A DNA stretch of 38,816 bases, taken from positions 1-38,816 of the forward strand of contig JAEELJ010000047.1 of NCBI GenBank assembly GCA_016288855.1, read 5' to 3'. Numbering within the stretch: the stretch's first letter is position 1; each line of letters begins with the position of its first letter. The position numbers were made by a program, and so were the translations under genes. The notes beneath the pieces were generated by a model, which was not told the DNA's origin, did no database searches, and worked only from the letters and a program-made list of their open reading frames with translations. Below are positions 2,765 to 22,244 of the stretch, in pieces. Source of the stretch: Acholeplasmatales bacterium (GTDB lineage Bacteria > Bacillota_I > Bacilli_A > Acholeplasmatales > Anaeroplasmataceae).

Positions 2765-2765
2765 G

Positions 2766-2839
2766 TAGTTCGTTATCCGTAGTGCCATAACCGAAAACAC
2801 TAGTAATAAAGCCACTTTTTTAACCAAACACCAGTGTTT
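2766..2839. repeat. Left end of the element: inverted core-type sites and AAACAC motifs
   Basis: Just inside the border, GTTAT (2772-2776) and ATAAC (2787-2791) face each other across 10 nt. AAACACTA follows at 2795-2802, then a palindrome AAACAC-CA-GTGTTT at 2826-2839. The right end has the same arrangement (GTTAT-N10-ATTAC, and AAACACTA twice). These are most easily read as recombinase binding sites, core-proximal plus arm-type. Binding is inferred, not shown. Confidence 0.6.
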
Positions 2840-2877
2840 ACACCTCTTTTTTAACAATTATATTTTAAAATGTGATT

Positions 2878-3333
2878 CTAAGTATTACCTTTCTTTTTTA
2901 TTTCAATTATTATTTTATTTCCTGATAGTGATTCGATTTCTGTCTTATATATTTTATCATTTTCATCTAAAATATAGTTAATACTTTTTATCTTATTATG
3001 ATCTAAACCAATTCCGTTATCTGCAAGGGTTGAATATAATATTTCCTTTGGAATAACAAACGGAAACTGTTTACCTTGTCCATAACTTCCTCTAGTTTTT
3101 TTTAAAAAATTATCTTTTTTCACCTTCTCACCAACTGTACTATTATCTTCAATCATCTTTCTAATTTCTGGATTATTATATAAAAATGTTTTTGAGATAC
3201 CTAGCTCAGTCGCAATTAATGAAAAGCTAATTTTTTGATGATATTCAATTTTATTGTTTATAAAATCAATTACTCTTTTTTCTTTTTCAATTACATCTCG
3301 TCTTTTTTTTCTTTCTTTTTTGATTTCAGACAT
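2878..3333 (-). CDS. Small TnpC-like HTH protein of the element (second copy)
   Basis: 151 residues counted from the ATG at 3333, chosen because AGGTGAT lies about 6 nt upstream; an in-frame GTG at 3342 sits inside that ribosome site. The N-terminal third is very basic. A helix-turn-helix-like stretch follows (SLIATELGISKTFLYNN, about residues 45-61), then EIRKMIED. The same order, HTH then a (F/Y)(L/V)xxNxEI(R/K)xxI motif, occurs in the neighbour at 3376-3792, so the two look paralogous. Tn554 encodes one such small accessory protein (TnpC), which influences integration orientation and frequency. The C-terminal half (IPKEILYSTL onward) replaces the coiled coil of the other copy and I do not recognise it. 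It is the last gene of the recombinase operon. Confidence 0.6.
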   Translation of the reverse strand: MSEIKKERKKRRDVIEKEKRVIDFINNKIEYHQKISFSLIATELGISKTFLYNNPEIRKMIEDNSTVGEKVKKDNFLKKTRGSYGQGKQFPFVIPKEILYSTLADNGIGLDHNKIKSINYILDENDKIYKTEIESLSGNKIIIEIKKKGNT

Positions 3334-3375
3334 AAATATCACCTATTGAAATTTTATACTAAAATTAGTACTTTT

Positions 3376-3792
3376 TCAAGATATTGTGTCTAAATGTGCC
3401 TGAATCAAATTAGCGTTTTGCTCAATTAGTTTTTTGTTTATTTCTTCTAATTCTTTAATCTTATTATCTTTTACAACTATTTCTCTTGATAATGACGATA
3501 CCTTCTTTTCTAAATTAGCAATTCTTAAATTTGCAATTGAAAGAGTTGCAATCTCTCTTTTTGTTTTATTCTCACGATTAATATAAGGAGATTTTTCTTT
3601 AATAATCTTCTTTATTTCTTCATTATGCTTTACAAAAGAGATTGAAACATCGGCTAATTTTGACACATTTCCATAAGTTATAGGCTCTCCCATTTTTTGC
3701 AACTCTTCTACTGCATCATAACATGCCTTTAAGCATTCCTCTGTCGTTAATTTAGGTTTTCTAAGTTTTGATACTTTTACATTTTTCTTCAT
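3376..3792 (-). CDS. tnpC: TnpC-like accessory protein (HTH plus coiled coil)
   Basis: 138 residues, close to Tn554 TnpC (about 125). It has a basic start, a predicted HTH (ITYGNVSKLADVSISFVKHN, roughly residues 39-58), and a C-terminal half made of leucine/isoleucine heptads (LSIANLRIANLEKKVSSLSRE onward) that should form a coiled coil. This layout is typical of the small protein encoded after the Tn554-type recombinases. AAGGAGATGAT precedes the ATG. It starts 14 bp after the third recombinase ends, so it belongs to the same operon. Role by analogy: accessory DNA-binding factor for transposition. Confidence 0.7.
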   Translation of the reverse strand: MKKNVKVSKLRKPKLTTEECLKACYDAVEELQKMGEPITYGNVSKLADVSISFVKHNEEIKKIIKEKSPYINRENKTKREIATLSIANLRIANLEKKVSSLSREIVVKDNKIKELEEINKKLIEQNANLIQAHLDTIS

Positions 3793-3806
3793 AACATATC
3801 ATCTCC

Positions 3807-5606
3807 TTACGCACAACTAATGTTACTCTTTAACAATTCAAGTTTTATTTTTTCTAAAATTTTTAATAGTTTTATATTGCTTTCAAGTAAAATATCAAAT
3901 CCATTTAATCTTGCAATCTCAATATCCTTATTACAATCATTGATCATTAAACTAATTGACTCTAAATAATATGCTTTATTAATTGGTTTAAAGAAATTAC
4001 ACTTCAAGCATCCATAACCAGCACCAGAATTACAACTATTTGAATTAACTAATGTACAACCACCAACTGCTGTTTTTCTAACATATTCATTTTCAGAATT
4101 AATTCTTACTCCTAGCGATTCATCACCAATACACTTAAGCAATTTATCTAATTGATCAAAATATGGTTTTTTATATTGCATAATTGTAGCAGGAGAATAC
4201 TTTGTATAGTATAATTGTGTATTTAAATTTGAATGTCCCAAAAGCTCTTTTACTAAATGTGGATCATTATATTTATTAATTGCATTAGTACCAAAAGTAT
4301 ATCTAAATCTATATCCATATGCGTGTAAAGGTTCACCATTTCTATCAAGTATATTGTGAGCTTTAATTATTTTTTGCAATTTAGGCATAATGTCTTCTGT
4401 AACATTAAACGGATAATCCTCGTTCTTTTGGAATATATATATTGCCTTCTCTTTAAATTTTTCTATTGAAATATCGATATTCTTTTTTAAAATTTTATAT
4501 ACTGTATCGCTTAATTCTAGCGATTCATATTTATCTTCTTTATTGATTTCAATCACATTATATCTATTTACTTTATTCATATAAACATTTAATCGACAGC
4601 CATTATTTGATTCAATCAAATCGGTTATTGTTAACGTGGATGTATCAGCAGGTCTTAATCCTAATGAATGCATTACAAATAACATATCCCTACTTAATTC
4701 ATCCAAATATTGATAACATTTAATTACACTTTCCTCTTCTTCAGGTGTAAAAGGATCAAGCCTTTTTTCTATATAACATTTTGGCATTTCACTTTTTAAT
4801 ATCAATTTATCACAATTTAAAAAATGACAATCTAGATATAAATAATTTAAAAAGCTCCTACATTTATATAATACTCTATAAGTTTGTCTAGAATTATTTT
4901 CACTTTTTTTGATAAATATAATGAAATGTTTCATAATCTCTCTATTTAATAAAGATAAATTATCTAAGACAAAATTATAATTATCTTTCAAAAAATTATA
5001 AAATACCTTCAATGATTTCATTTCATTCATAGCACTTGCATATGAATATTTTTTCAATATATTATATGTATATTTCTTAACATATTCTTTAAAGTATGCT
5101 GATGAAAAGTAGGTAAATACAATTCTTGTCAGTCTTTTATTTTTCGGAATTTTAACTGGAAAATCAAAATTATTAACATCCCATGTGTCATTATCATATT
5201 CGTTTGTACTCCTATATTTTTCTTCTATCATCGAATAAAGAACACTAATCGAAGTTTTTGATTGTCTAACTATCTTTCCATATTTATTTAAACTATATTC
5301 TTCATATCTTTTCATATACTCTTCATATGAGTATTTTAAAAAATCCTTTTCACATGTGAATTCATTTACAAACTCACAATTTTTTCTTATATATACTATT
5401 TTTGTTTGAGAACTTCTTCCTCCATAACTCAAAATATAATTTCTAATAATTTCTCTAATTCCATCATTAAATATCTTTAAGTCAATAGTTATCCAACGAG
5501 TTATTCTTTTTCCATTGCATGAATCTATATATTTAACTGAAATAATATCCCCATCAATCTTAACATCTTCACTATCCAATTTAGAAAGCATTAGTGGGTT
5601 TCTCAT
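3807..5606 (-). CDS. Tyrosine recombinase, TnpB-like with C-terminal Cys cluster (third of three)
   Basis: 599 residues from the ATG at 5606, chosen for the GGAGAG about 8 nt upstream; an earlier in-frame start at 5645 would overlap tnpB more deeply and lacks such a site. The catalytic domain shows box I Arg in LGLRPADTSTL (R318), box II YRFRYTF (R435) and ELLGHSNLNTQLYY with H458 and the presumed nucleophile Y467, nine residues after the His as in its two neighbours. The usual His of HxxR is a Tyr (Y432). A C-terminal cysteine cluster (CTLVNSNSC...GCLKC) resembles that of Tn554 TnpB-type proteins and of the 927-aa neighbour. It overlaps the end of tnpB by 26 bp. It acts with the other two recombinases in moving the element. 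Confidence 0.85.
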   Translation of the reverse strand: MRNPLMLSKLDSEDVKIDGDIISVKYIDSCNGKRITRWITIDLKIFNDGIREIIRNYILSYGGRSSQTKIVYIRKNCEFVNEFTCEKDFLKYSYEEYMKRYEEYSLNKYGKIVRQSKTSISVLYSMIEEKYRSTNEYDNDTWDVNNFDFPVKIPKNKRLTRIVFTYFSSAYFKEYVKKYTYNILKKYSYASAMNEMKSLKVFYNFLKDNYNFVLDNLSLLNREIMKHFIIFIKKSENNSRQTYRVLYKCRSFLNYLYLDCHFLNCDKLILKSEMPKCYIEKRLDPFTPEEEESVIKCYQYLDELSRDMLFVMHSLGLRPADTSTLTITDLIESNNGCRLNVYMNKVNRYNVIEINKEDKYESLELSDTVYKILKKNIDISIEKFKEKAIYIFQKNEDYPFNVTEDIMPKLQKIIKAHNILDRNGEPLHAYGYRFRYTFGTNAINKYNDPHLVKELLGHSNLNTQLYYTKYSPATIMQYKKPYFDQLDKLLKCIGDESLGVRINSENEYVRKTAVGGCTLVNSNSCNSGAGYGCLKCNFFKPINKAYYLESISLMINDCNKDIEIARLNGFDILLESNIKLLKILEKIKLELLKSNISCA

Positions 5607-8364
5607 ATTTTTCACTCTCCTCTTTATAATTAATATATGTTTCAATACTTGATATAATATCGATTAACTTATTTCTCGTATCAATTAGTTCTTGTTCTAT
5701 TAATTCCTTTTTGTTAATAGTTTTATATCTTTCGATGATTTTATCTATTTGATTCTTTAAAGCAACATAATCTGATAATTTATCAGGTTGTGGCACAAAA
5801 CTAGGACAATTGAAGCAATTATTAGAACCCTTACCACACTTAGCTTTCTCTCCTAACACAGTCTTTTGATAACACATACCATACATAACTGGTCTTATTT
5901 TTGCCAATTCTTTATCATCAAATGATATATCAAATTTTTCTTGAAGAATTCCTTGTTTTCTAAAATCATCAGGAATATTATTTTTTATTCTTGATACTCT
6001 ATCAAAAGAATGATTGTTATAAATTACAGTATTCTCAATGTTAGCATGATTTAAAGATACTTGAATTATATTTTCAGGAACCTCAAAATCTTGCAACATT
6101 GAAGCAACAGTATGCCTAAATTGATGCGTCGTTATATGAAGAATTTTACCATTTGAACCTTTTATTTCTTCTTCTTTAAAAAAATCATTTATATCTTTAT
6201 TAACTCTATTACAATTTAAAACTCCAAATTTCCTATCATAAACAATGTATTTACATCGTCTTTCATGTGTTTTTATATAATCTGAAATATAATCATATAA
6301 ATCTTTTGAAATTAAAGTTGATTGATATTTTAAAGCTTTTGTTGAATAGGAGTTTAAATAATAATATCCATTATTACAGTATAGGCAATCTCTTTCTAAT
6401 GATGCTACTTCACTAAATCTTAATCCTGTATATACAAGAACAACGATAATAAACATATACCTTTCATCCAATTTATTTATTACAGAAAAAATTCTTTGAA
6501 TATCTGATAAATTTATATCATTATTTTTATACTTTCTACTTCGATCGTATTTATAGTCTGATTCATTTACAATATTATTTTTAACAAGTCCCTCAGCAAT
6601 TAAATAATCATAAAAGTTATCAATTGCATGAATTTTAGTATTAACTGTATTGATAGATACTTTTAAGTTGTTTTTATAATTAAGAAGCATATTTCTACTT
6701 ATTTTTTCATATGAACACGATGTATAATTTAGAAACTCTGAAATCTGATTTATAGTACTTTGAATACATTCATATTTCCTTTCAGTATAAATTATTTGAT
6801 TTTCAGCATAATTATAAAGCACTGTATAATTCTCCGGCGTATTTAAGTTATTAAACCTAATCACCTTTTTCTCCTTACCGACATATGTTCTTTCTAACCT
6901 TTCGGTGTTCTCATATTTACCAATATATAATACAGGATATTTATCTATTTGATGACTTATAACAATTCTTTCATCAATATAATTGTTAGCATATAAAAAA
7001 TGAAGAAAATCATCAGGAGAACTTAAATATTTTCTTGTAGCGTCATAGCACTGATTTAAGTTTCTAATGTAAAGCTTATAAGCATCTATAATTTCATAAT
7101 TAATTTTAGACAATTCTATTTTATTTTCAGATATATAATTAAAAAAACATGACAAATAATTAAGTTTCATTTTCAAATATGTCGTTTTAAAGCCTTTATC
7201 CTTTTTTAATGCATCTATATAGTCAATAACTATTTGCCTATACTTTTCAGGAAACCTTTCAAAACAAATATCATCAACAGTTTTTCTTTTTGTTACAACC
7301 TTTTTTTTCCTTTTACTTACTATAGATATACATCCACTGATCAAATATTCTCTATAAACGACCATTTTATTCTTGATACTGTCATTACAATTCAAAGAAT
7401 CAATTTCATTTATTTCGCATATATTAGTTTTATATAAATTTAAATACCATTTTGCCCCAACAATTGTATCTTCAAAAGATATATGGGGTAAATCTAAAGT
7501 TAACATGTAATTAACAAATTTTTTGAATTCGTAATAATTATTTAAATCCTTCATATCAAACAATTTAAATGAATGCTCCTTATTCTTATAATTTGTTACA
7601 ATTTCACGTCTAGATATCTCTTTATACGCCATTGGATTATTTACCATGTAGTTATTAACATAATAATCAATAAAAACTTTGAAATGTGCCATTTTTAGCC
7701 TCATATACTTTTTGTTAATCTTGCCAGAGCATACTTCATTTACATAATTAATAACTGATTGTTCAGTAATTATTCCTTCATCTACTTCCGCATTTTTCAT
7801 AAATTCATCTAAAAATCTTACTTTCATAACAATATCGCCTAAGGTATTTTCGGTATTTTCGATTAGATAATTTAAATACTTTTTAATAATCTCAGTCTTG
7901 TCATCACTAAGCCATGAAATTCCTATATTCTTAATACAATTACTTGTTTTAGGTTTGCCTTGCTTATGCTTCAATTCAATTTCCGGTGTAACATGAAATA
8001 TGATATTTGTAGTTGTATAATCAATCAATCTAATTTTTACTAGTTCTTTTAAATATAAACAATCGAAAAATTCTTTAATAATGAAAATATTAGTTGGTCT
8101 ATCTAAGTTTTCTCTGACCCAATCACAATATTTATTAAAATCTTCTTGACTATATTCTTTTACACTTTTATCCTTCAAAGATATCAAGAAATTACTAGAA
8201 GTATTAAAATGTCTTCTAGCTGTTTTTAATTTATTCTTGCCATCAAAAATCCAATAGCAATATTCTATTAAAGCCTCCCTATTAGAGTCACTGGGAATAT
8301 CCTTTATTATAATAAATTCATCTTTATATTTTTTATTAAATCTTGATAATAATACTCTCTCCAT
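5581..8364 (-). CDS. tnpB: Large tyrosine recombinase, TnpB-like (second of three)
   Basis: 927 residues, longer than Tn554 TnpB (about 630); the first ~380 residues look like an extra SAM-like DNA-binding region joined to a standard integrase. Catalytic residues by position: R649 in YTGLRFSEV, H747/R750/H751 in THQFRHT, H773 in SLNHANIEN and Y782 in TVIYNN, so the set is complete. A C-terminal cysteine cluster follows (GMCYQ ... CGKGSNNCFNC). AGGAGG lies 8 nt upstream of the ATG. The gene begins 4 bp after tnpA ends and overlaps the third recombinase, which shows tight translational coupling. Mobile-element transposase, cytoplasmic and DNA-bound. Confidence 0.9.
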   Translation of the reverse strand: MERVLLSRFNKKYKDEFIIIKDIPSDSNREALIEYCYWIFDGKNKLKTARRHFNTSSNFLISLKDKSVKEYSQEDFNKYCDWVRENLDRPTNIFIIKEFFDCLYLKELVKIRLIDYTTTNIIFHVTPEIELKHKQGKPKTSNCIKNIGISWLSDDKTEIIKKYLNYLIENTENTLGDIVMKVRFLDEFMKNAEVDEGIITEQSVINYVNEVCSGKINKKYMRLKMAHFKVFIDYYVNNYMVNNPMAYKEISRREIVTNYKNKEHSFKLFDMKDLNNYYEFKKFVNYMLTLDLPHISFEDTIVGAKWYLNLYKTNICEINEIDSLNCNDSIKNKMVVYREYLISGCISIVSKRKKKVVTKRKTVDDICFERFPEKYRQIVIDYIDALKKDKGFKTTYLKMKLNYLSCFFNYISENKIELSKINYEIIDAYKLYIRNLNQCYDATRKYLSSPDDFLHFLYANNYIDERIVISHQIDKYPVLYIGKYENTERLERTYVGKEKKVIRFNNLNTPENYTVLYNYAENQIIYTERKYECIQSTINQISEFLNYTSCSYEKISRNMLLNYKNNLKVSINTVNTKIHAIDNFYDYLIAEGLVKNNIVNESDYKYDRSRKYKNNDINLSDIQRIFSVINKLDERYMFIIVVLVYTGLRFSEVASLERDCLYCNNGYYYLNSYSTKALKYQSTLISKDLYDYISDYIKTHERRCKYIVYDRKFGVLNCNRVNKDINDFFKEEEIKGSNGKILHITTHQFRHTVASMLQDFEVPENIIQVSLNHANIENTVIYNNHSFDRVSRIKNNIPDDFRKQGILQEKFDISFDDKELAKIRPVMYGMCYQKTVLGEKAKCGKGSNNCFNCPSFVPQPDKLSDYVALKNQIDKIIERYKTINKKELIEQELIDTRNKLIDIISSIETYINYKEESEKYEKPTNAF

Positions 8365-8368
8365 TATA

Positions 8369-9526
8369 TTAATCCTCCTCTTTTATTTTGTTTAATTTAA
8401 GCTCGTTTGCTCTTTCAACCATCAATTTTTGAGCTTTTCTTGCATGAATATACCTATCTGAAGATTCAAGTCGTTTATGCCCTAATATTGTCTGTAATGA
8501 TATTTGATCTTGAGTCGAATCATAAAAGTCAGTAGCAAATGCATGTCTTAAATCATGTGGATGAATTTTATAATCTTCATCAATCCATCCTTGCTCTAAT
8601 AATATTTTTTGATATATATTAAATTCACTTTTTATTACATTATCCGTCAACGCTTTGCCAATATTCTTTCCAGAATATGACACAAATAAATAATCACTTG
8701 GAAAATGATTTTGAGAAACAATCAAAAGTGTAATAATATGATTAGCTACTTCTTCATCGACAGATAAAATTCTATCTTGTGTTTTTGATAATGCTTCGTT
8801 TTCGTTATCTTCTCGATGAAGAATTTCAATATTACCCTGACCAATATCAGATAAATCATCTAGTCTTAACCCAAGTATTTCCCCAACTCTTAAACCACAA
8901 TTAATTGCAAGTTCTAAAAACACTATTCTTCTTAACATTGTTAATTCTTTAATTCCCATTTTAGATGTAATACCTTCACATAAATAAGGTACTTTGTTTA
9001 TTAAATAAATTATCAGTTTTTCTATAACAGTTCTATCAATCGGATTATTTGGCTTTGCACGTTCAGTTTTATAATCAATATTAAATTTAAACTTTTCTTT
9101 ATGATACTTTTTACCGATAAATTCATTAAAGACTGAATTTGAACTTTCACTGATCAAAGTAAAACTATTAAGTGATACTATTTCCTCATCAGCTAAAAAC
9201 GAATAAAAAGATACAACATCAGAACATCTTTCGTTACAAGTAATATTTTCTACATTTCTAACATTAGATAAGTAATCACTATATTTAGAAAAGAAACTTC
9301 GTATTTCTTTTATATTAGCAACATCAAGAACATTCATATTATTTACTTCTAAATAATTAAAGAAAATCATTAATGATGTTGCGTATCTTTTTAATGTATG
9401 TCTTGATCTATTTAACCTTGCTAAATGAATTATAAATTTTGATGAATAAACTTCAGGTATCCCATTTCTATCAACTACTATCCATAAAGTTTTATTATCT
9501 CTTTTAACACTTTTAAAAGAATACAT
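8369..9526 (-). CDS. tnpA: Tyrosine recombinase, TnpA-like (first of three)
   Basis: 385 residues, similar to Tn554 TnpA (361). An N-terminal SAM-like core-binding domain (about residues 25-115) is followed by the catalytic domain with all residues present: R213 in NCGLRVGE, H324/R327/H328 in HPHDLRHAFAT, H350 in ILGHKRLESS and nucleophile Y359. It is the first gene of the recombinase operon, read from a near-consensus promoter at 9561-9589. AAAGGG about 9 nt before the ATG is a modest ribosome site. The C-terminus overlaps nothing; tnpB starts 4 bp on. Confidence 0.93.
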   Translation of the reverse strand: MYSFKSVKRDNKTLWIVVDRNGIPEVYSSKFIIHLARLNRSRHTLKRYATSLMIFFNYLEVNNMNVLDVANIKEIRSFFSKYSDYLSNVRNVENITCNERCSDVVSFYSFLADEEIVSLNSFTLISESSNSVFNEFIGKKYHKEKFKFNIDYKTERAKPNNPIDRTVIEKLIIYLINKVPYLCEGITSKMGIKELTMLRRIVFLELAINCGLRVGEILGLRLDDLSDIGQGNIEILHREDNENEALSKTQDRILSVDEEVANHIITLLIVSQNHFPSDYLFVSYSGKNIGKALTDNVIKSEFNIYQKILLEQGWIDEDYKIHPHDLRHAFATDFYDSTQDQISLQTILGHKRLESSDRYIHARKAQKLMVERANELKLNKIKEED

Positions 9527-9543
9527 TTTAACCAGCCCTTTCT

Positions 9544-9602
9544 GTACTAAGCTTAGGAACAGTATACAACGTTTTTACCATTTAGTCAACTAACCTTAGT
9601 AC
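9544..9602 (-). promoter_or_regulatory. Strong promoter of the recombinase operon flanked by an inverted repeat
   Basis: On the minus strand TTGACT (9584-9589) and TATACT (9561-9566) are exactly 17 nt apart, nearly a perfect sigma-A promoter. It is bracketed by an 8-bp perfect inverted repeat, CTTAGTAC at 9595-9602 and GTACTAAG at 9544-9551. This suggests an operator that could be closed by a looped or dimeric repressor. The regulator is unknown; the TnpC-like HTH proteins are candidates. Confidence 0.75.
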
Positions 9603-9610
9603 GGTTTTTA

Positions 9611-9648
9611 AAAATTAAAAAAGCAATTAGTTTAACACCAATTGCTTT
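9611..9648 (-). terminator. Terminator after the element-borne rlmI
   Basis: A stem AGCAATT / AATTGCT (9622-9646) is followed on the minus strand by a T-rich run. It separates the rlmI/RM transcript from the recombinase promoter just downstream. Confidence 0.8.
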
Positions 9649-9666
9649 TACAATTATTTTAATAAT

Positions 9667-10830
9667 TTATTTTACTCTTAAAATCATGCATTTCAAATAT
9701 AACTGTTCTTCTGATTGTAATAAGGCTGGATGGTCAGGGGCTTGAATTCTAAAATCCAAAAATTGAACAGTTCTTTTAGCATCATGAGCTGCTTCATTTA
9801 CCATTTGCATAAATAAATCTGGAGTCATATGCTGGCTACAACTAAACGTTAATAAATAACCACCAGATTTAATAATCTTCATAGCCTGCATATTAATTTC
9901 CTTATATCCTCTATAAGCTTTCTTTAAAGAATCCTTATTTTTAGAGAAGGCTGGTGGATCCAAGACTATAACGGAATACTTATTCTTAATTTCTTCACTA
10001 TGAAGGTAATCGAAAACATCCGTACATATAGTGTTCAACTGCGTATAACCATTTAATTTTGCATTTATAGCAATTTCATCACAAGCCCTTTGTGATATAT
10101 CACAGGCGTCTACATGTTTTGCTCCATATTTACAAGCGTGTAATGCAAAGCCTCCAACATTAGAAAATGCATCTAATACAACTTGGTCTTTAGCATATAA
10201 TCTTAAGATATCTCTATTTAACTTTTGATCTAAGAAATAGCCTGTTTTTTGACCATTTTCCATATCAACCATCATCTTTATTCCATCTTCGACAATCTCT
10301 ACTCTAGGATCAAATTTACCATATAAGAAACCTTTTACTTGTTCAAGACCTTCTTTTTCTCTAACAGGCATATCGCTACGTTCATAAATACCTTTGCAAC
10401 CAGTTAATTCAACTAATATATCAACTATATCTTGCTTAATCATATCCATTCCTAAAGACATAAATTGCACTGATAAATAGTCACCATATTTATCAACAAC
10501 AAGTCCCGGCAAGAAATCAGCTTCGCTGAATACTAAGCGTGTTGCACTCCAACCCAAATTCTTTCTATGCTCAATTGCATAAGCTATTCTTTTCTTAAAA
10601 AATTCTTTATCTATAACTTCATTTTCATCTAATGATAAAATTCTAACCATAATCTTAGAATTGGTATTTAAGAATCCATAACCAACAAATTTATGGTCAA
10701 AGGTATATACACTACAAACCTTACCGTTTTCAATAGTGCCTTCGAAATTAATTATTTCATTATTAAATACCCATGGATAGCCATTCAAAACATTATCCTC
10801 TTCATGCTTATTTAATATTACTTTTAGCAT
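9667..10830 (-). CDS. rlmI: Intact RlmI-like 23S rRNA (m5C) methyltransferase carried by the element
   Basis: 387 residues, close to E. coli RlmI (396), which methylates C1962 of 23S rRNA. Order: N-terminal PUA-like domain (NGYPWVFNNEI), a linker with KYGDYLSVQ and GIYERSD, GQKTGYFLDQ, SAM motif I DAFSNVGGFALHA, motif IV VIVLDPPAFSK, then KKAYRGYKEIN and a catalytic-type Cys in LLTFSCSQHM. The ATG at 10830 is chosen because AAAGGACG lies 7 nt upstream; upstream in-frame codons to 10872 have no site. By eye it is clearly homologous along its whole length to the two halves of the split chromosomal copy (22245-23123 plus 2474-2764), roughly half identical and thus not a recent duplicate. It sits between hsdR and the recombinases. 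Inference: cargo that replaces the function lost on insertion. Confidence 0.9.
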   Translation of the reverse strand: MLKVILNKHEEDNVLNGYPWVFNNEIINFEGTIENGKVCSVYTFDHKFVGYGFLNTNSKIMVRILSLDENEVIDKEFFKKRIAYAIEHRKNLGWSATRLVFSEADFLPGLVVDKYGDYLSVQFMSLGMDMIKQDIVDILVELTGCKGIYERSDMPVREKEGLEQVKGFLYGKFDPRVEIVEDGIKMMVDMENGQKTGYFLDQKLNRDILRLYAKDQVVLDAFSNVGGFALHACKYGAKHVDACDISQRACDEIAINAKLNGYTQLNTICTDVFDYLHSEEIKNKYSVIVLDPPAFSKNKDSLKKAYRGYKEINMQAMKIIKSGGYLLTFSCSQHMTPDLFMQMVNEAAHDAKRTVQFLDFRIQAPDHPALLQSEEQLYLKCMILRVK

Positions 10831-10862
10831 GTAATCACGTCCTTTTTTATACAAAAAGCATT

Positions 10863-14073: not shown

Positions 14074-14074
14074 A

Positions 14075-15169
14075 TTATCTAGCCTCCTTCATAGCTCCTG
14101 CAATTAATATAGGGCAAATATTTGAAATCCTATTTTTTAGAACTTCAACATATTTTTTGCGTTTATTATATATTTTAAAAACATTTGAAATATTTTTTTG
14201 AACATCAATAGTTGGTATTGGAATTTTTACATTTATTAAATCATTCCAAGTGAATGTTTCTCTTGCACTTCCCCAAGAATGAAATCTAGCATATCTATCA
14301 AATTCTTTCCTATTAAAGAACATACATAAATATTCAGGGAGTAAATATTCTAAATCTGATTCAAATACCTCATTAACTGATGAAACAACTATATCATCAT
14401 CTGTATCATTTAGTGCATATGCAAAAACTTTTTCGTTATGTGTCGTTTGTACAAAAGAAATTTGGTTCGGTTTTACAACTTTATAATTCTTCAATTCATT
14501 ACGATTTACTTTCGAAGTTGGTTCATTAAAACACTTATAGACACTAACATTTTTCACATTTTTAATTTTATTATCAGAATTCTTAATATCAACTCTACTA
14601 ATATATTTGCCTATTTTTTTACATTCACAGTTTTTTTTCAAATTTTCAATATAACCATCACAAACAAGCTTCAAATCATCTAACTTAGATTCATAAACCT
14701 TCAAATTATATTGCAATGCTTTATAAATTTTTACATATTTTTTTTGGACTTCTAATGGTGGTAAATCAATCTCAAATTCTCCCAAATTATATGTTCTAAA
14801 ATAGTTTCTAGCAGATCCAATTGCATCAAAAGAACATCTTCTTGCAAATTCATTTCTTTTGATAAATAGATTCAAATATTCGGGCAATAATATATCATTT
14901 CTAGAAACATAAAAAATTTCATATAGTGAAGAACATATTCCTTTTTTTATCTCGGTATTTAATGCAATTGAATTTAATTCCATTCTAGCTGGATTAAACA
15001 CAAAATCATTTTGATAAAACACATTATAAATTGATAAATCAGCATTTTCCTGCTTTGGACTAATAAATCCATCTCGACTTACCCCTCGTATAGGAAGTTC
15101 TTCTATACCATTGTATTTTTCTCTACGTTGAATAATTAATTGTGACAATTTATATCTATTCAATGCCAT
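14075..15169 (-). CDS. hsdS: Type I restriction-modification specificity subunit (HsdS)
   Basis: 364 residues from the ATG at 15169, preceded by GAGG and overlapping hsdM by 14 bp; the longer frame to 15223 lies wholly within hsdM. It has two target-recognition domains, each ending in a similar block: LLPEYLNLF...EFARR...GSARNYF with LPPLEVQKK near the middle, and LLPEYLCMF...EFDRY...GSARETF with IPIPTIDVQKN near the end. Each block is followed by a helix that sets TRD spacing. The two domains read the two halves of a bipartite DNA site. The target sequence cannot be predicted from the protein by eye. Confidence 0.92.
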   Translation of the reverse strand: MALNRYKLSQLIIQRREKYNGIEELPIRGVSRDGFISPKQENADLSIYNVFYQNDFVFNPARMELNSIALNTEIKKGICSSLYEIFYVSRNDILLPEYLNLFIKRNEFARRCSFDAIGSARNYFRTYNLGEFEIDLPPLEVQKKYVKIYKALQYNLKVYESKLDDLKLVCDGYIENLKKNCECKKIGKYISRVDIKNSDNKIKNVKNVSVYKCFNEPTSKVNRNELKNYKVVKPNQISFVQTTHNEKVFAYALNDTDDDIVVSSVNEVFESDLEYLLPEYLCMFFNRKEFDRYARFHSWGSARETFTWNDLINVKIPIPTIDVQKNISNVFKIYNKRKKYVEVLKNRISNICPILIAGAMKEAR

Positions 15170-16739
15170 ATCCAATGCCTCTAAATGCCTCTTCAAGCTC
15201 TTTTTGCGATTGTTTTTCATCATCTAACAGAGTCTTCATTTCCTTTTGAATACGAGCCATTTCTTTCTCGAAATCTATTTCTAAATCGTGGTCAACAAAC
15301 TCAATGTATTTTGAAGGGATTAAACTATAACCTTTCTTTGCAATTTCATCCTTAGTTGCGGAATAGCAAAATTCTGGAACATTTTTATATTTTTCTTTCC
15401 ATTCAGGAGATTGCCAAGCGAATAGTGTATCTTGAATTTTTTTCTTATCTTCCTCTTTTAATAAAACATATCCTTCATCATTTTTGCCTTCGTCGCCTAA
15501 CCTTCTAGCATCGATAAACAAGATTTCATTTTCACGGTTTCTTAATTTAACATCAACGTCATTTCTTCTTACGGTCTTTTCTTTTTTATGATTTCCAATA
15601 ATCCATAATGTTACCGAAATATCTGTATAATAAAACATTTCTCTAGGTAAAACAATAATTGCTTCAACTTTATTGTTTCTAATTAAATTTTCTCTTATCT
15701 TAGCTTCATCACCATCAGCACCTAATGCACCATTTGCAAGTAAGAAAGCTCCTGTTCCATTATAAGACAATCTTGACAACATATGTAAAATCCAAGCATA
15801 ATTAGCGTTGCTTACAGGTGGAATAATATGTTTATTTTCATCGTTATCCCATCTTCTATCATTAGTTAATTCATCTTCTGTTCTCCAAGCCTTTTGGTTA
15901 AATGGAGGATTTGCTAGGATAAAGTCTGCTCTTAAATCTTGATGTAAGTCGTGACTAAATGTATCGGCATCACTTTCACCAAGGTCACAGTTTAATCCTC
16001 GAATTGCTAGATTCATTCTAGCCATTTGATAGCTTTTAGGGTTATACTCTTGTCCGTAAATTGTTATATTCTTTGTATTACCTTTATGTTCCTTAATAAA
16101 CTTTGCAGACTGAACGAACATACCGCCTGAGCCACAGCAAGGATCGTAAACCTTGCCAGCATAAGGCTGAATTAACATTGTCATCAATTCAACTATATTT
16201 CCCGGAGTATAGAACTCTCCCTTTTCATCCTTAGCTTTAATACAGAAATTCTTTAAGAAATATTCATATACTCTACCGATAACATCATCTGACTCATCTT
16301 GTGAATATTCAATCTTATTTATTTCATCAATTAAAGATGAAAACTTAGATGCTTCAATATGTAATGTTAAATAAAATCCTCTAGGTAATGCTCCTTTTAA
16401 TGAAATGTTATTCTTTTCAATATTAGTAAAAGCATCATCAATAATTGTTAAAATATTGCTTTGTTTTGAATGATTTTTAATGTAATCCCATCTATCTTCT
16501 TCAGCTAAATAGAATACGTTATCTTTACTGTAAAATCTTGGTGAATCAACAAAGTCTTTTGTATCTTCATTTGATAGAATCTTTTCTCTTTGTACAATGA
16601 ATTTATCATATGCAAAACGTAAGAATAATAATCCTAAAACAACATTTACATAATCTGTTGCACTTACGCTTCCTCTTAATTTGTTGCAGGCATTCCATAA
16701 TCCTGCTTCTAAACTTACTTTTTTCTCTGTTTTTGCCAT
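15156..16739 (-). CDS. hsdM: Type I restriction-modification methylase subunit (HsdM)
   Basis: 527 residues, standard length. A helical N-terminal domain (LWNACNKLRGSVSATDYVNVVLGLLFLRF) is followed by GEFYTPG, SAM motif I DPCCGSGGMF (D199) and the N6-adenine catalytic motif NPPF (277-280), then the C-terminal helices that hold HsdS. It methylates adenine in the HsdS target. Its start is 10 bp downstream of the previous gene and it overlaps hsdS by 14 bp. Unlike its upstream neighbour it has intact catalytic motifs. Confidence 0.95.
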   Translation of the reverse strand: MAKTEKKVSLEAGLWNACNKLRGSVSATDYVNVVLGLLFLRFAYDKFIVQREKILSNEDTKDFVDSPRFYSKDNVFYLAEEDRWDYIKNHSKQSNILTIIDDAFTNIEKNNISLKGALPRGFYLTLHIEASKFSSLIDEINKIEYSQDESDDVIGRVYEYFLKNFCIKAKDEKGEFYTPGNIVELMTMLIQPYAGKVYDPCCGSGGMFVQSAKFIKEHKGNTKNITIYGQEYNPKSYQMARMNLAIRGLNCDLGESDADTFSHDLHQDLRADFILANPPFNQKAWRTEDELTNDRRWDNDENKHIIPPVSNANYAWILHMLSRLSYNGTGAFLLANGALGADGDEAKIRENLIRNNKVEAIIVLPREMFYYTDISVTLWIIGNHKKEKTVRRNDVDVKLRNRENEILFIDARRLGDEGKNDEGYVLLKEEDKKKIQDTLFAWQSPEWKEKYKNVPEFCYSATKDEIAKKGYSLIPSKYIEFVDHDLEIDFEKEMARIQKEMKTLLDDEKQSQKELEEAFRGIGYGIE

Positions 16740-16749
16740 AATAATCTCT

Positions 16750-18060
16750 TTAAATCTCCATATTTTTTAACAAAGCATTCCATACTTCGTCTATTTCTTT
16801 GTCAATTTGCTCGACAGGTCTATAATTTGTTACCTTTACTGGAACAACGTGTCTATTTACAACTAATGTTTCAGATTTAACAACAATATCCAAACAATGT
16901 TTCACCTCAGAAATATTATCTATTTCTTTCTTATTAGTAACAATATCAAAAATCATATCAATTCCTTCTGTAGTTAATTGATTAGATGATTTTTGTTTTT
17001 GAGTAAAGTTGAAATATTCATTCGTGCCTGCACTAACAAATACCACTGATTTATCCTTTTTATTCTTTGATAAAATCAAAACATTTGTTTGAATTGCAGT
17101 TGCAGACCACATTGATGGTAATTCTATAACTGCATCAATATAATTATTTTCCAATAAATACTTTCTTAATTGAACATATGCTTTTTGTTCTTTGAATAAT
17201 ACTCCACTAGGCACAGTTACAAATGCTCTACCTTTATCATTTAATGATTCTAATGTCATCAATATAGATAAAATATTACTATCTGACATATTACCCATGA
17301 TATCTTTATAAGATTGCATATATCTCATTTCATAATCACGATTTAACTTAGCGTTTATTGGTCCATCATTAAATATCAAATCAGCTTTAAGTTTGCTAGA
17401 AAATTCATTCATATAGGCATCATTTAGTTGTAATTGTACATTATTCTTTTGAGCAATAATGCATCTAATTGTAGCTAACATAAGTGTCTTAGGATTTATA
17501 TCATTACCTACAGAACTAACATCTTGAGGTAATTTACTAATAAATACACCTGTTCCAACAAAAGGATCATAGCATAGTTCCCCAGATTGAGGGTTAAGTA
17601 TTTTAATTGCTAAATTTGCTAATGAATTATTAGATGAAAGTTCGCTATACATTCTTCCAGAATTACTAATTTTCTCGTCAAAATAATCAAGAATAATTTC
17701 TCCAGAATCTTTTAAGTTCAATGTCCAAAGAGAACTCCATATTCTTCCATCTTTAAATCCTATTTGTTCATATACATCTAACAATGTTCTAGTAAATGCA
17801 TATTCACCGTTAAAACAGTTATATGTTTTTTCTATATAATTTACTAGGCATTCTCTAGAAATACCATTTATATCATGCGTAGACATTTGTAAATCTAATA
17901 ATGCATTCAATTGTTCTTCGTTTGTTGCAAACGCTCTATTATCCATTGACCATTTTAAAAACAATAAACAAAATATATTTTCAATTTCATTTGCACTTCC
18001 ACTTAGTCCTCTTATTTTATTACTAAAAGACCACAATGTATTTTCAAATTCCTTATTCAT
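16750..18060 (-). CDS. HsdM-like N6 methylase homologue with degenerate motif IV
   Basis: 436 residues, about 90 shorter than the true HsdM beside it. The N-terminal helical domain (TLWSFSNKIRGLSGSANEIENIFCLLFLKW) and motif I DPFVGTGVF (D165) are preserved. The catalytic (N/D)PP(Y/F) is replaced by NDGP (231-234), so base flipping and methyl transfer are probably lost, while SAM binding may remain. AAGGAGG precedes the ATG. It overlaps the half-S gene by 8 bp and is followed 10 bp later by active hsdM. The pair S-like/M-like therefore forms a second, non-standard module in front of a complete RM system. Possible roles: DNA-binding regulator, target-site competitor or a modifier of the HsdM complex. 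None is established here. Confidence 0.75.
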   Translation of the reverse strand: MNKEFENTLWSFSNKIRGLSGSANEIENIFCLLFLKWSMDNRAFATNEEQLNALLDLQMSTHDINGISRECLVNYIEKTYNCFNGEYAFTRTLLDVYEQIGFKDGRIWSSLWTLNLKDSGEIILDYFDEKISNSGRMYSELSSNNSLANLAIKILNPQSGELCYDPFVGTGVFISKLPQDVSSVGNDINPKTLMLATIRCIIAQKNNVQLQLNDAYMNEFSSKLKADLIFNDGPINAKLNRDYEMRYMQSYKDIMGNMSDSNILSILMTLESLNDKGRAFVTVPSGVLFKEQKAYVQLRKYLLENNYIDAVIELPSMWSATAIQTNVLILSKNKKDKSVVFVSAGTNEYFNFTQKQKSSNQLTTEGIDMIFDIVTNKKEIDNISEVKHCLDIVVKSETLVVNRHVVPVKVTNYRPVEQIDKEIDEVWNALLKNMEI

Positions 18061-18622
18061 TATTGCCTCCTTCTGAGATCATTGTTTCAATTTTCTCATT
18101 TTGCAATTTAATCATTTTTTCTAACAACATCTTATTAGTTGTCATCTTCTTATACTCTAAACCAATTCTCTTTTGTAAATCTATAGACTTATTTGGAATA
18201 TCTATGCTTTTCAATTGTCCAACAGACATGATACCAGTAACACTTCCTGTTACCATTCTTTGTACTTGCTCAACAAATAGTTTTGAATTGATATAAGCAA
18301 CAGCATAATTCTTGTCTATTTGATTATTTTCTAATCTAAGAATTGCACAAAATGAAGGAACAACTAAACCCACATGATTTGAATCTATCACGCAAGCTTC
18401 GTATGGAGTTGATAATTTTACGATTATATCACCTTCCATTGTCATTTTAGATTCATCTAATTTAGTTTTCATTTTGTTATCAACAAGTTCTGAATCCATA
18501 ACCACTCCATTGCTTATTGCTTTAGGTAATAAGACTTTTCTAATTTCAACTTCGTCAATTTCAGTTGTTATTCTAGACATTACTTGTCCTGATGTTACAT
18601 TAAATATTTCACTAATTAGCAT
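18053..18622 (-). CDS. Half-size HsdS-like protein (single recognition domain)
   Basis: 189 residues from the ATG at 18622 (GGAGG about 8 nt upstream). It resembles one half of a specificity subunit: a beta-rich segment (LLPKAISNGVV, EGDIIVKLSTPYEACVID), AVAYINSK, GSVTGIMSVGQLKSIDIP and a closing helix (LQKRIGLEYKKM...EKMIKLQNEKIETM). Only one TRD is present, so it would have to dimerise to read a palindromic or bipartite site, as reported for some half-S proteins. It overlaps the 142-aa gene by 11 bp and the degenerate methylase by 8 bp, so the three are translationally coupled. The most natural partner is the adjacent degenerate methylase. Confidence 0.75.
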   Translation of the reverse strand: MLISEIFNVTSGQVMSRITTEIDEVEIRKVLLPKAISNGVVMDSELVDNKMKTKLDESKMTMEGDIIVKLSTPYEACVIDSNHVGLVVPSFCAILRLENNQIDKNYAVAYINSKLFVEQVQRMVTGSVTGIMSVGQLKSIDIPNKSIDLQKRIGLEYKKMTTNKMLLEKMIKLQNEKIETMISEGGNNE

Positions 18623-19040
18623 AATCGTATTCCTCCATTTTATAATCAAAATAATTATTATACTTTATGAACTTCTTAATATTTCTAACAAGAGTATTTT
18701 TATAAATTGATAATTGCCTTTCAATTTTTCCTTTTTTCTTGCTAGTGTTGCACTTATCCTCTTCGATTCTCTCATATAAATTTTCAATCATATTTTGTTC
18801 TTGAACCGAATGACAATTTAAATACGGGTCTTTCGAATTAATTTCAACTAATTCGTCATATTCATTTTTATCAATTTTAACAACATCAATAATTGCATCC
18901 TTATGGTGATGTTTAACTCTTGGTAACCATCTTGCAATGCTGGCAGCTTCTTTTCTATTTTCCGCTTCAACAGGCATCCATACATTTATACAATTATTAA
19001 TTCCTACGTGACCGCATTTAACAAAAACCTTACAATACAT
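18612..19040 (-). CDS. Unknown 142-aa protein leading the RM operon
   Basis: I do not recognise the family. The start at 19040 is chosen because AGGAGG lies 9 nt upstream; the ATG at 19049 abuts that site. The N-terminal ~60 residues look like a small folded domain, with KCGHVG, then AENRKEAASIARWLPRVKHHHKDAIIDV; the Cys, His and clustered His-His-His residues could bind metal. The C-terminal half is charged and helical (EERIEED, TSKKKGKIERQ, LVRNIKKFIKYNNY) and may contact nucleic acid or protein. It is the first gene behind the repeat-flanked promoter at 19114-19142 and is translationally coupled to the half-S gene. Its position as leader of an RM operon suggests a regulatory or accessory role, but that is inference only. 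Confidence 0.6.
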   Translation of the reverse strand: MYCKVFVKCGHVGINNCINVWMPVEAENRKEAASIARWLPRVKHHHKDAIIDVVKIDKNEYDELVEINSKDPYLNCHSVQEQNMIENLYERIEEDKCNTSKKKGKIERQLSIYKNTLVRNIKKFIKYNNYFDYKMEEYDYAN

Positions 19041-19077
19041 ATTATACATCCTCCTATAAAATAATGCAATCGAAATG

Positions 19078-19167
19078 TTGTCATATTTTTTTGGTACTAT
19101 CGATTACACCTATATTGTAGCACCCAAATTATATGTTGTCAACAATTTTGTCATATTTTTTTGGTAC
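19078..19167 (-). promoter_or_regulatory. RM operon promoter flanked by two 20-bp direct repeats
   Basis: On the minus strand TTGACA (19137-19142) and TACAAT (19114-19119) are exactly 17 nt apart. An identical 20-mer, GTACCAAAAAAATATGACAA on the minus strand, occurs at 19148-19167 just upstream of -35 and again at 19078-19097 just after the likely transcription start, 70 bp apart. Two perfect copies on both sides of a strong promoter look like operators. Each copy is bipartite (GTACC, A-rich spacer, ATGAC), like a type I recognition site. Confidence 0.8.
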
Positions 19168-19180
19168 ATATTAATTGGTG

Positions 19181-19208
19181 CAAAAAAAGAACCTATTAAT
19201 AGGTTCTT
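19181..19208 (-). terminator. Terminator after the DUF262 gene
   Basis: A near-perfect palindrome (arms AAGAACCTATT / AATAGGTTCTT, 19187-19208) is followed on the minus strand by seven T. It insulates the DUF262 gene from the RM promoter. Confidence 0.9.
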
Positions 19209-19223
19209 AATTTATAAAATATT

Positions 19224-21626
19224 TTATATTTTTTCTACAAGGGCATCAATTTCTAATAAAACATTCATAATTGATTCCTTTGTTGCTTCAAAATTCTTTG
19301 AATAAAGCATATTCCATTGACGAGTCTTTTTAAACTCTAAAAAATTATTAGTCAATTTTGTTCCCAAATCCTTATTTGGAGTGTTCACCCATAGAGAAGC
19401 ATTCATTTCTTTGATATTAAAGTAAATTAATCCACTAGTATCAACCATTTCATTTGTTTCACTATTATATTTAAATTCTTCTCTTCCAAATATGCCATGT
19501 AATTTAACGGTATCAACTATAAAATTTCTATCTCCATCATATTGTTTTTTATAAATAAAATAATTGGCATTATTAGATACTATTTCATTTAAAACTTTAC
19601 CAACAGTTTCTCTATTTTTAAACAATTCATCTTTATTAGGTTTAGTATAAACTATTAAATCCTGTGGAATATAATTATCCTTTAACAAATGTTTTAAAAT
19701 TTGTTTAGCACTTCCACGATAATCTTCGCTTGGTGCAAGTATCTTTCCTATTTCATAGAAACTATACACCTTTTGTATTTTATTATTATGCTTTATAGCG
19801 ATTGGTTGAGCTCCAGTAAATAACTCATAGTTTATTTTTGTAACTGGATGAACATTACACTTTTCAAATAACGATGTATTTTCTTTTGCTTCCTCAATTG
19901 AATCAACTTTAAATAAGGCATTTGCCTGACTAACAAGATCATTATTTCTTGTATTGAAATTATCCAAATTCCATGTTGGATAGCTTGCAATATTTTTATT
20001 TAATGTAAACTTTGATTTCTTATATATTGATAACTTATAATCATATGACTTATTACTAGCATCGGTATTAGATGAAGTATCAATAAAACTCAAATTACCA
20101 ATACAATGTTTTCTTGGTGTTAAATCTTTGATTACTTGAGCATTCCAATACTCCTCTTTAGGAGTTTGTGGAAAAATATGTTCCACTCTTCTTTTCTCAT
20201 CTAAGATTACTCTTTCTTTGTGCCAAGTTGGATATCTACCATCCTCTAATGAATTTAATATTACATCACGTAATGCAGATTTATGATATAATTCACATGC
20301 TAAAAGTCTATCAACAAATTTGTCTCCAAAAATATACTCACCAAATCCATAATTTTTTGCATATTTAAAATAATTGTATATAGCCAAATACTTATCTTCA
20401 TTATTCTCAGCATTAATGTAAATTGATTGATATAAATTTACAAATAATTGACGATACTTATTTGATGTTACTCCACAAATTCTAGATTTAACTATAAATA
20501 CTAATATCAAATTTAAAATCTTATTCAATTCTTCTTTTCTATTGGAAGAACCATTAATAATTATTGGCTTAAATTCTTTACATTCAAACAATTTAATTAA
20601 AAAAGGATATACGGTCAATATATTCGTTCTATTAATTTCAGAAGTCAATCTAACCCATGATTCTTTCTTTTCTGAATCATTTAAATCTCTACACAAAATA
20701 TATCTATATACTTCTGAACAACTATATAAATCTTTTAATGCTTCTTTTTTGTAGTTGTCAGCTTTTTTCTGAGATTCAACATATTTTCTATATTCCTCAA
20801 AGACTTTATCTTCATTTACAATTTCGCCTTTTCTACTCATTACATAATTATGAATAAAAGATTCAAGATTATCTTGACCAACATTATTTTCAATTTTAAT
20901 CCAATAATTTTTATATAAGAAATCTCTATTACCTTCATTCATCAATAAATAATTTAAAACAAGATCATATTCTTTTAATCTAGCATTATTATAATTAAGT
21001 CTTTCAAAAATAATCTGAGAATCTTCGAATTTATTTAATACAATTTCAGAATTAAGCAAATACTTTATTCCTTCAACATATATATCAATGTTTTCTTTAT
21101 TTTTTAAATAATCAAATATTTCCTTATATCTTCTAGATAATACATTATCAATTAATTTTACTTGTGAATAATCATATGGAATATTTATAATCGTATTAAA
21201 AGTTGTTATATCTTCATCTTTTCTTTTATCTAAATTGATATATGAATTATCATCATCTATCATTAAAAGATTATTTAAGTACTTTCTATTATCCTCATTT
21301 GTTGTTATCAAAGATAAAGCCTTAATTATCAAAAACATAGTGATAAATCTTTGTTGACCATCAACAATTACATAATTGTCATTGTCTTTTTCTTTTTGTA
21401 AAACAAGAGTTCCAAAAAAATGATCTCTTTTTGATAAACCAATTTCATATATGTCATCAATTAGTCTTTTGCAATTGCCATCACATACACCACTTTTGTT
21501 ATCCTTATCCCAAACATAATCTCTTTGAAAGCAAGGAATAACAAATTGAACCCTAGGTTGAATATTATTTTTGTCACCATTTGGGTTATAAATCCAATCA
21601 ACAAATTTCTTATTCAAAATTTCCAT
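19224..21626 (-). CDS. DUF262/DUF1524 HNH protein, GmrSD-like type IV restriction or defence nuclease
   Basis: 800 residues from the ATG at 21626 (GTGGTGAT just upstream). The N-terminal DUF262 domain has the diagnostic IPCFQRDYVW and VDGQQR (88-93), the ParB-like nucleotidase motif. The middle is helical. A DUF1524-type HNH site occurs near residue 483 as RRVEHIFPQTP, followed by NLSFIDTSSNTDASNKS. The C-terminal ~200 residues form an extra domain. GmrSD proteins with this DUF262 plus HNH arrangement cut modified phage DNA; others of the family act in different defence settings. The gene has its own terminator and is separate from the type I operon, so the element carries two independent restriction functions. 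Confidence 0.85.
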   Translation of the reverse strand: MEILNKKFVDWIYNPNGDKNNIQPRVQFVIPCFQRDYVWDKDNKSGVCDGNCKRLIDDIYEIGLSKRDHFFGTLVLQKEKDNDNYVIVDGQQRFITMFLIIKALSLITTNEDNRKYLNNLLMIDDDNSYINLDKRKDEDITTFNTIINIPYDYSQVKLIDNVLSRRYKEIFDYLKNKENIDIYVEGIKYLLNSEIVLNKFEDSQIIFERLNYNNARLKEYDLVLNYLLMNEGNRDFLYKNYWIKIENNVGQDNLESFIHNYVMSRKGEIVNEDKVFEEYRKYVESQKKADNYKKEALKDLYSCSEVYRYILCRDLNDSEKKESWVRLTSEINRTNILTVYPFLIKLFECKEFKPIIINGSSNRKEELNKILNLILVFIVKSRICGVTSNKYRQLFVNLYQSIYINAENNEDKYLAIYNYFKYAKNYGFGEYIFGDKFVDRLLACELYHKSALRDVILNSLEDGRYPTWHKERVILDEKRRVEHIFPQTPKEEYWNAQVIKDLTPRKHCIGNLSFIDTSSNTDASNKSYDYKLSIYKKSKFTLNKNIASYPTWNLDNFNTRNNDLVSQANALFKVDSIEEAKENTSLFEKCNVHPVTKINYELFTGAQPIAIKHNNKIQKVYSFYEIGKILAPSEDYRGSAKQILKHLLKDNYIPQDLIVYTKPNKDELFKNRETVGKVLNEIVSNNANYFIYKKQYDGDRNFIVDTVKLHGIFGREEFKYNSETNEMVDTSGLIYFNIKEMNASLWVNTPNKDLGTKLTNNFLEFKKTRQWNMLYSKNFEATKESIMNVLLEIDALVEKI

Positions 21627-21684
21627 AAAAATCACCACACAGAATAGTTTTCAACAAAATAATTATAGCATTTATCACGCATTA

Positions 21685-21711
21685 AAAAAACCCTTATATT
21701 TTCATATAAGG
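21685..21711 (-). terminator. Terminator after the 96-aa orphan
   Basis: The stem CCTTATAT / ATATAAGG with a 4-nt loop (21692-21711) is followed on the minus strand by a run of seven T. Confidence 0.88.
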
Positions 21712-21724
21712 ATTCTAATTCAAA

Positions 21725-22015
21725 TCAATATTCACCTTTTAGAATACATGTTCTAACATACATATAATAAAAATATCCATCATAGTAATCATCGAAATAA
21801 TATATTTCATTTAGTGTAGTTATATTACTCCAATCAGTTTTACTAGTATAGATAAAAACACCGATAAAATAATCTACTTCCTTTTTGTTTTTTCTTGTAC
21901 CCAAAATAATATAAGGAAAGTTCTCTTCTAATTCACTTTTTGAAAAATACGAGTTGCTCCTATGTTTTCCTTCACGTATATCATCTGGTGTTCTGCCTAG
22001 TATTTTTTCCAACAT
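21725..22015 (-). CDS. Unknown 96-aa cargo protein
   Basis: Not recognised. The start at 22015 is chosen for GGGAGGTG about 8 nt upstream. It begins MLEKILGRTPDDIREGKH, continues with a segment predicted as beta strands (YIILGTRK, DYFIGVFIYTSK), and ends in a tyrosine-rich tail (YYFDDYYDGYFYYMYV). No signal peptide or clear membrane span. It has its own terminator. It is the element gene nearest the right end and thus the first accessory gene inside it; a defence-linked role is only a guess from the neighbours. Confidence 0.55.
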   Translation of the reverse strand: MLEKILGRTPDDIREGKHRSNSYFSKSELEENFPYIILGTRKNKKEVDYFIGVFIYTSKTDWSNITTLNEIYYFDDYYDGYFYYMYVRTCILKGEY

Positions 22016-22024
22016 AAAATTCAC

Positions 22025-22244
22025 CTCCCTATAAAAATGTTTATATGAAAGGCTATTTCTTTTAACAAATAAAAAAATTGATCATTTGTTCATTGTAGCC
22101 TTTCAGGCATAATTGTATCTGGGGACACATTCCCCAAACCCTTTGAACATCAACCAACTTTATCTATAAACACTATTTAACACCAATATATATTTACTAT
22201 AGATATACACCATAAACACTATTGGTAATAATACTATCGATAAC
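22025..22244. repeat. Right end of the element: nested hairpin, direct repeats and core-type sites
   Basis: No gene. A 10-bp perfect inverted repeat TGAAAGGCTA / TAGCCTTTCA (22046-22055, 22096-22105) encloses a second pair AACAAAT / ATTTGTT (22064-22070, 22084-22090). GGGGA-N5-TCCCC follows at about 22121-22135. ATAAACACTATT occurs twice as a direct repeat (22166-22177, 22212-22223). At the border GTTAT (minus, 22244-22240) faces ATTAC across 10 nt, as at the left end. These are likely recombinase binding sites and perhaps a structured leader RNA. Confidence 0.6.

Follow-up and report, generated by a model that had tools for sequence, protein, structure and literature searches.

A three-recombinase element splits a chromosomal rlmI at its catalytic motif and carries a full-length, diverged rlmI homologue

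All genes between positions 118 and 23129 of the window (the whole stretch of 38,816 nucleotides analysed here) lie on the minus strand, and most of this interval is taken up by a mobile element that separates two parts of a chromosomal rlmI (Table 1). Along the direction of transcription the element encodes a GmrSD enzyme, a half HsdS, a second HsdM, HsdM, HsdS, HsdR, a complete cargo RlmI, tyrosine recombinases A, B and C (the trio), and two DUF6262 proteins. The type I locus (14075-18649) holds two HsdM-like and two HsdS-like genes, of which the second pair is diverged and the second HsdS is half-length. No conjugation or mobilisation genes were recognised in the element. The cargo gene is followed by its own terminator, and recombinase A is preceded by a promoter-like site; such sites are no more frequent in the region than chance would give. 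Around the split the genes are arranged as in relatives, with seryl-tRNA synthetase to one side, and ptsI and a PHP-domain protein to the other.

Table 1. Coordinates of the split rlmI, the element and its features, listed in the direction of transcription
Feature	Position	Strand	Remarks
Chromosomal rlmI, 5' part	22244..23123	-	codons 1-293 and first base of Asp codon
Target core TCTTAG	22244..22249	-	kept at left (upstream-of-tnpA) end; sole symmetric parse restoring VIVLDPPAF
Whole mobile element, 19,471 bp	2773..22243	-	imperfect inverted termini TTATCGATAGTATTATTACC / TTATCCGTAGTGCCATAACC
GmrSD-type (type IV) restriction enzyme	19224..21638	-	PF03235 and PF07510
Half-length HsdS-like protein	18053..18649	-	
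Second, diverged HsdM-like methylase	16750..18060	-	
Type I methylase HsdM	15156..16739	-	
Type I specificity subunit HsdS	14075..15223	-	
Type I restriction subunit HsdR	10915..14073	-	
Cargo rlmI, full length, 387 aa	9667..10830	-	DPPAF and SCSQHM motifs
Intrinsic terminator, 13-bp stem	9619..9649	-	directly after cargo rlmI; z = -4.3
Promoter-like site TTGACT-17-TATACT	9561..9589	-	upstream of recombinase A
Tyrosine recombinase A, 385 aa	8369..9526	-	PF00589
Tyrosine recombinase B, 927 aa	5581..8364	-	PF00589; long N-terminal extension
Tyrosine recombinase C, 612 aa	3807..5645	-	PF00589; HxxR of active site is YxxR
DUF6262 protein, copy 1	3376..3792	-	PF19776, 25.8 bits, below cut-off of 29
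DUF6262 protein, copy 2 (TnpC/GinD counterpart)	2878..3342	-	PF19776 above cut-off
Brought-in 6-nt core CGAACT	2767..2772	-	right (downstream-of-tnp) end; not rlmI-type
Chromosomal rlmI, 3' part	2474..2766	-	Asp codon to stop; similar to RlmI residues 291-386

The sequence-only reading had proposed that a mobile element breaks the chromosomal rlmI at its catalytic motif, and the two halves, the points at which blastn homology stops and a single parse of the junctions agree with this. The 5' part corresponds to RlmI residues 1-291, with matches to PF10672 and PF17785; against the intact rlmI genes of many relatives, nucleotide homology ends at 22244 and restarts at 2764-2766. The break lies within the Asp codon of the DPPAF motif, just past its first base, and the truncated 5' part is left with neither motif IV (DPPAF) nor the SCSQHM motif. 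When the flanks are rejoined minus one 6-nt core, an uninterrupted rlmI frame of 390 codons is restored with no stop, and stops and frameshifts are absent from both halves, which marks the insertion as recent. The boundaries proposed earlier (2765-22244) prove correct to within a few bases.

The genome itself is a metagenome-like draft of 88 contigs, estimated as 100% complete. Searching it with the Pfam family and the cargo protein recovered three RlmI pieces, all within the window: the two host halves and the full-length copy at 9667-10830. No other RlmI is present in this complete genome, the leftover weak matches being unrelated methyltransferases, so the further intact chromosomal gene that would have told against a replacement is not there, and the cargo rlmI is the sole intact RlmI of its own genome. 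Intact host-type rlmI genes in three relatives (G002, G026 and G012) provide the empty-site examples that the earlier reading had called for. An assembly chimera, in which the rlmI halves and 19.5 kb of other DNA were joined artificially, could arise in a fragmented draft, but the flanks give a continuous gene once exactly one 6-nt core is allowed for, inverted termini lie at the joints, and gene order on both sides agrees with that of relatives; we regard an artefact of this kind as exceedingly improbable.

The ends of the element were placed by scanning break points together with core lengths on the assumption of symmetric ends, with restoration of VIVLDPPAF as the criterion. Among the symmetric parses tested, a single one satisfies it, with host sequence through G22244, a core at 2767-2772 and host sequence again from 2766. 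The termini so defined are inverted repeats matching at 14 of 20 positions, a level that random pairs of 20-mers from the element reach in 0.02% of trials, and AAACACTA-type repeats stand just inside both ends as shared subterminal motifs. In Tn554 and the SE elements, the core of the target remains upstream of tnpA and the donor core comes to lie on the opposite side (PMC10214605). The same 6-nt arrangement is found here and its polarity fits that rule, since TCTTAG lies upstream and CGAACT downstream of the tnp operon; CGAACT would then derive from the donor site. This hexamer is incompatible, on either strand, with the V/I-L-D(first base) hexamer of rlmI, for which the form T-N-T/C-T-N-G is needed, so that the previous residence was not this rlmI motif if the Tn554/SE rules apply. 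By analogy with those elements, the element probably resided outside the rlmI motif before its present insertion, and no other sequence evidence tells so strongly against an exclusive reliance on rlmI as the CGAACT core, read through rules that were learnt from other elements. A donor core unlike rlmI implies in turn that the cargo rlmI served no need where the element resided before, or that it was taken up on other grounds.

By eye, alignments show the tyrosine-recombinase residues kept in A and B, while in C a Tyr replaces the His of HxxR. Recombinases B and C share about 23-26% identity with the TnpB proteins of Tn554-type transposons, a similarity that is weak but significant; the matches are to the Tn554 family on staphylococcal and enterococcal plasmids. 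The gene order A-B-C-DUF6262 also occurs in Lachnospiraceae loci, often with tandem DUF6262 genes. Recombinase relatives were sought in the order (160 genomes), the phylum (392), the class (395), genome_contigs (searched both by 8-mers and by alignment) and viral contigs, and no close relative was found in any of these sets. The best matches in genome_contigs are trio elements 25-27% identical in recombinase A, mostly from Lachnospiraceae; these relatives carry other genes and no rlmI, and rlmI adjoins none of them. The suggestion that related recombinases would be found inserted in rlmI DPPAF motifs thus gained nothing from the search, which returned no close relative and, among the distant trio loci, none with rlmI. 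A pattern search with the DNA of the right junction matched only the window within the order, together with six viral sequences, all without rlmI. Matches to DUF6262 in the order appeared to be mostly HTH false positives, and only one outside the window reached the cut-off; recombinase homologues were not found at the DUF6262 loci examined there.

A separate feature of the trio loci concerns their upstream side. In 26 of the 80 loci examined, and in two human-faecal contigs, a full-length gene for a DinG-like helicase lies directly upstream of the trio tnpA (L089, L090 and L103-L156; for example L109:1216-3180 and L120:453-2417). Identity of the helicase is uncoupled from that of tnpA (94-96% against 54-55%, both measured to L089), and Coprococcus comes MSK.16.63 has two helicase copies and two trios.

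The element is a Tn554/GInt/RIT-like recombinase-trio element, and each of the known groups is resembled in part. With Tn554 and the radC-targeting Tn558 it shares an operon that encodes two recombinases together with a DUF6262 protein, weak similarity of recombinase sequence, a 6-bp core, core transfer and imperfect inverted termini (PMC10214605). Its tnpA-tnpB-tnpC(DUF6262) operon, however, has one extra recombinase and one extra DUF6262 gene, so that the two-recombinase composition is absent; its cargo lies upstream of the operon where theirs lies downstream of tnpC; and its target is rlmI, not radC. Judged by their described organisation (PMC5385486), GInts likewise combine three integrases and a small helical protein in one operon, as seen here, with 6-nt staggered exchange, and are non-conjugative islands whose cargo is exchanged among relatives. 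They differ in having the operon at the 5' end, cargo after ginD, an AT-rich 3' end and direct imperfect repeats of 10-17 nt, whereas here the cargo precedes tnpA and the repeats at the joints are inverted; GInts also sit at gene ends and leave the product intact, whereas here the target is destroyed. SEs share the 6-bp footprint, the imperfect inverted repeats and the lack of mobilisation genes, and homologues of their tfp and srap are reported only from Gammaproteobacteria (PMC10214605). RITs share three recombinases in a row, but all of theirs are short, at 315-410 aa (PMC10214605), against 385, 927 and 612 aa and the added DUF6262 proteins in the present element.

The earlier statement that no Tn554-like element with such a pairing of target and replacement had been described is contradicted by Tn552-II of S. 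aureus, a Tn554-related element that carries a gene like its YolD target and for which rescue of the disrupted target was proposed (PMC12486829). The layout is visible in a Tn552-II-like S. aureus plasmid, NZ_CP093931.1 (L091:3015-11080), where the transposon is flanked by two pieces of YolD and contains a full copy; when trio loci were compared with themselves for a split target and a cargo copy, this plasmid was the only case returned. Both elements are site-specific tyrosine-recombinase transposons that lie inside a gene, carry a full homologue of it (YolD-like, 'tgl', in Tn552-II) and have a short core brought from the donor site. They differ in that Tn552-II has a 7-bp att, two recombinases, one DUF6262 protein, tgl downstream of tnpC and a small YolD-like target, against a 6-nt core, three recombinases, two DUF6262 proteins, a replacement upstream of tnpA and an rRNA methyltransferase target here. 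Because Tn552-II shows the same layout, the general idea of breaking a target and bringing a spare is not new. What is new is an rRNA methyltransferase cut at its catalytic motif, a three-recombinase element with cargo upstream of its operon, and a replacement that is diverged and comes from a different species within the family.

The second, diverged rlmI noted in the sequence-only reading is indeed present at full length, and its protein shares 61% identity with the host's 5' part and 59% with the 3' part. It contains PF17785 and PF10672 (PUA-like and SAM methyltransferase domains) and both the DPP and SCS motifs; in domains, motifs and length it is a member of the RlmI family, it aligns with 2as0 and it matches 3c0k. 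RlmI-type models of NCBIfam match it over its full length, yet below their equivalog cut-offs. At protein level it is 94%, 93% and 92% identical to the chromosomal RlmI of three members of the same family (G034, G019 and G138, respectively). In the RlmI tree it groups with G019 and G034, and the host gene groups with G004, G012, G002 and G026. Against G019 and G034, dS is about 1.2, which is near saturation, and dN/dS is about 0.04, a sign of purifying selection; together these values indicate that the gene is functional, comes from a family member that has not been sampled and is not a recent copy of a known one, since its nearest known relatives already stand at near-saturated dS. The cargo codons at the target site are unlike those of the host, but the same codons vary widely among relatives, so the difference need not reflect recoding for immunity.

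With both catalytic motifs, its own terminator and so low a dN/dS, the cargo rlmI may plausibly replace the lost function. A different role, for instance on another rRNA or RNA target tied to the adjacent restriction genes, would suit its position between the type I restriction operon and the recombinases and the fact that the RlmI family has several targets, NCBIfam listing C1962- and C2499-specific members. The cargo, however, falls inside the clade of the relatives' chromosomal RlmI to which it is 92-94% identical, and its counterpart in G019 stands at the locus with the PHP and ptsI genes, which makes a separate role improbable.

The sequence-only reading had further supposed that the element makes systematic use of the DPPAF codons. 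Across the order (160 genomes) and class (395) samples, with roughly 150 RlmI-bearing genomes, no second demonstrably split rlmI was found, and no relative of the element was found beside rlmI. One contig, in G004, ends at exactly the insertion base (L034:3846, G004:C100), with the remainder of the gene missing from the bin; its rlmI 5' part is the closest known to that of the host (92% protein and 87% nucleotide identity). From its sequence this end suggests a second insertion, although it may also be due to chance. A further candidate, G595, whose contig also starts near the DPPAF motif, was rejected as two overlapping strain variants cut by contig ends, the start apparently reflecting strain variation.

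These results bear on the possibility of a dedicated, self-repaying strategy, in which the conserved DPPAF codons of rlmI would be what the recombinase recognises and a replacement copy would be a constant part of the lineage's cargo. The exactness of the insertion in the most conserved motif, the full-length and apparently functional cargo, the G004 contig end and the Tn552-II precedent would all be expected of it; the donor core is not from rlmI, and the searches returned neither a relative of the element nor another split rlmI. We therefore think such a strategy unlikely, and a dedicated pairing of target and replacement, with one certain case, is unproven.

Nor is RlmI evidently essential to these bacteria. 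It is absent from three near-complete congeners (G015, G016 and G021; 96%, 94% and 94% complete), so its loss is not obviously costly and a replacement was perhaps unneeded; it is also absent from G028 (91% complete), of the same family and another genus. To judge from these gene complements, RlmI appears dispensable in the genus. The gene also moves horizontally in the group, as conflict between trees indicates: the cargo-like RlmI clade requires at least six changes on the PtsI tree, and G018 and G019 are 95% identical in seryl-tRNA synthetase and 84% in PtsI but only 69% in RlmI. In these two genomes (L042 and L038, respectively) the divergent rlmI genes lie near the same serS, PHP and ptsI genes, which points to replacement in place by a foreign homologue. 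The earlier claim that the element destroys a conserved housekeeping gene and repays its host therefore stands in part: rlmI is inactivated and the cargo is the only intact RlmI, but the necessity of repayment was put too strongly, because RlmI is absent from congeners and moves between species.

We consider it likely that a trio element with defence genes inserted site-specifically in rlmI and that its cargo rlmI supplies the lost methylation. A circular intermediate of the mobile element would have recombined into the chromosomal gene between Leu and Asp of DPPAF; the 6-nt core of the target would have remained on the side upstream of tnpA, with 6 nt from the donor set at the opposite end. 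The chromosomal gene would thereby have lost both motif IV and the catalytic-Cys motif. The element's complete rlmI, which descends from a chromosomal rlmI within the same bacterial family, would be expressed and, alone in the genome, most likely make good the missing 23S rRNA methylation. The cargo rlmI would then be retained on the element by selection for its function and not by chance. The same facts can be read as coincidence, the element having acquired rlmI in an earlier host within the same family, for a cause independent of its target, and having then landed in rlmI by accident, where the spare copy made the insertion neutral and the insertion survived. That the donor core CGAACT has an origin other than an rlmI DPP site, that RlmI is dispensable in congeners, that trio relatives elsewhere carry other genes and that rlmI is transferred horizontally in the group in any case would all fit; yet the same gene arriving independently as cargo and as target is improbable without selection or a mechanism, and Tn552-II has the same layout with another gene (PMC12486829). 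Coincidence is accordingly possible, if on the doubtful side.

Under the preferred reading, of insertion followed by replacement of function, the locus has a bearing beyond this genome. Integrative elements usually limit the harm they do, by using gene ends or by restoring the truncated end. Here, by contrast, the insertion cuts through the catalytic core of its target gene, and the element brings along an entire, diverged homologue. Since Tn552-II and the present element show the same layout at two unrelated targets, the idea of a spare copy as payment is testable. The layout also offers a route by which foreign homologues could replace core genes. It is tempting, though rather unlikely in our judgement, to see recombinase-trio and Tn554-like elements as a class whose members recurrently insert in conserved coding motifs and bring a full replacement (rlmI here, YolD in Tn552-II). 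If true, carrying a copy of the target gene as cargo would be a general way to neutral insertion in a conserved gene, and would also explain how foreign copies came to stand in the place of rlmI in relatives.
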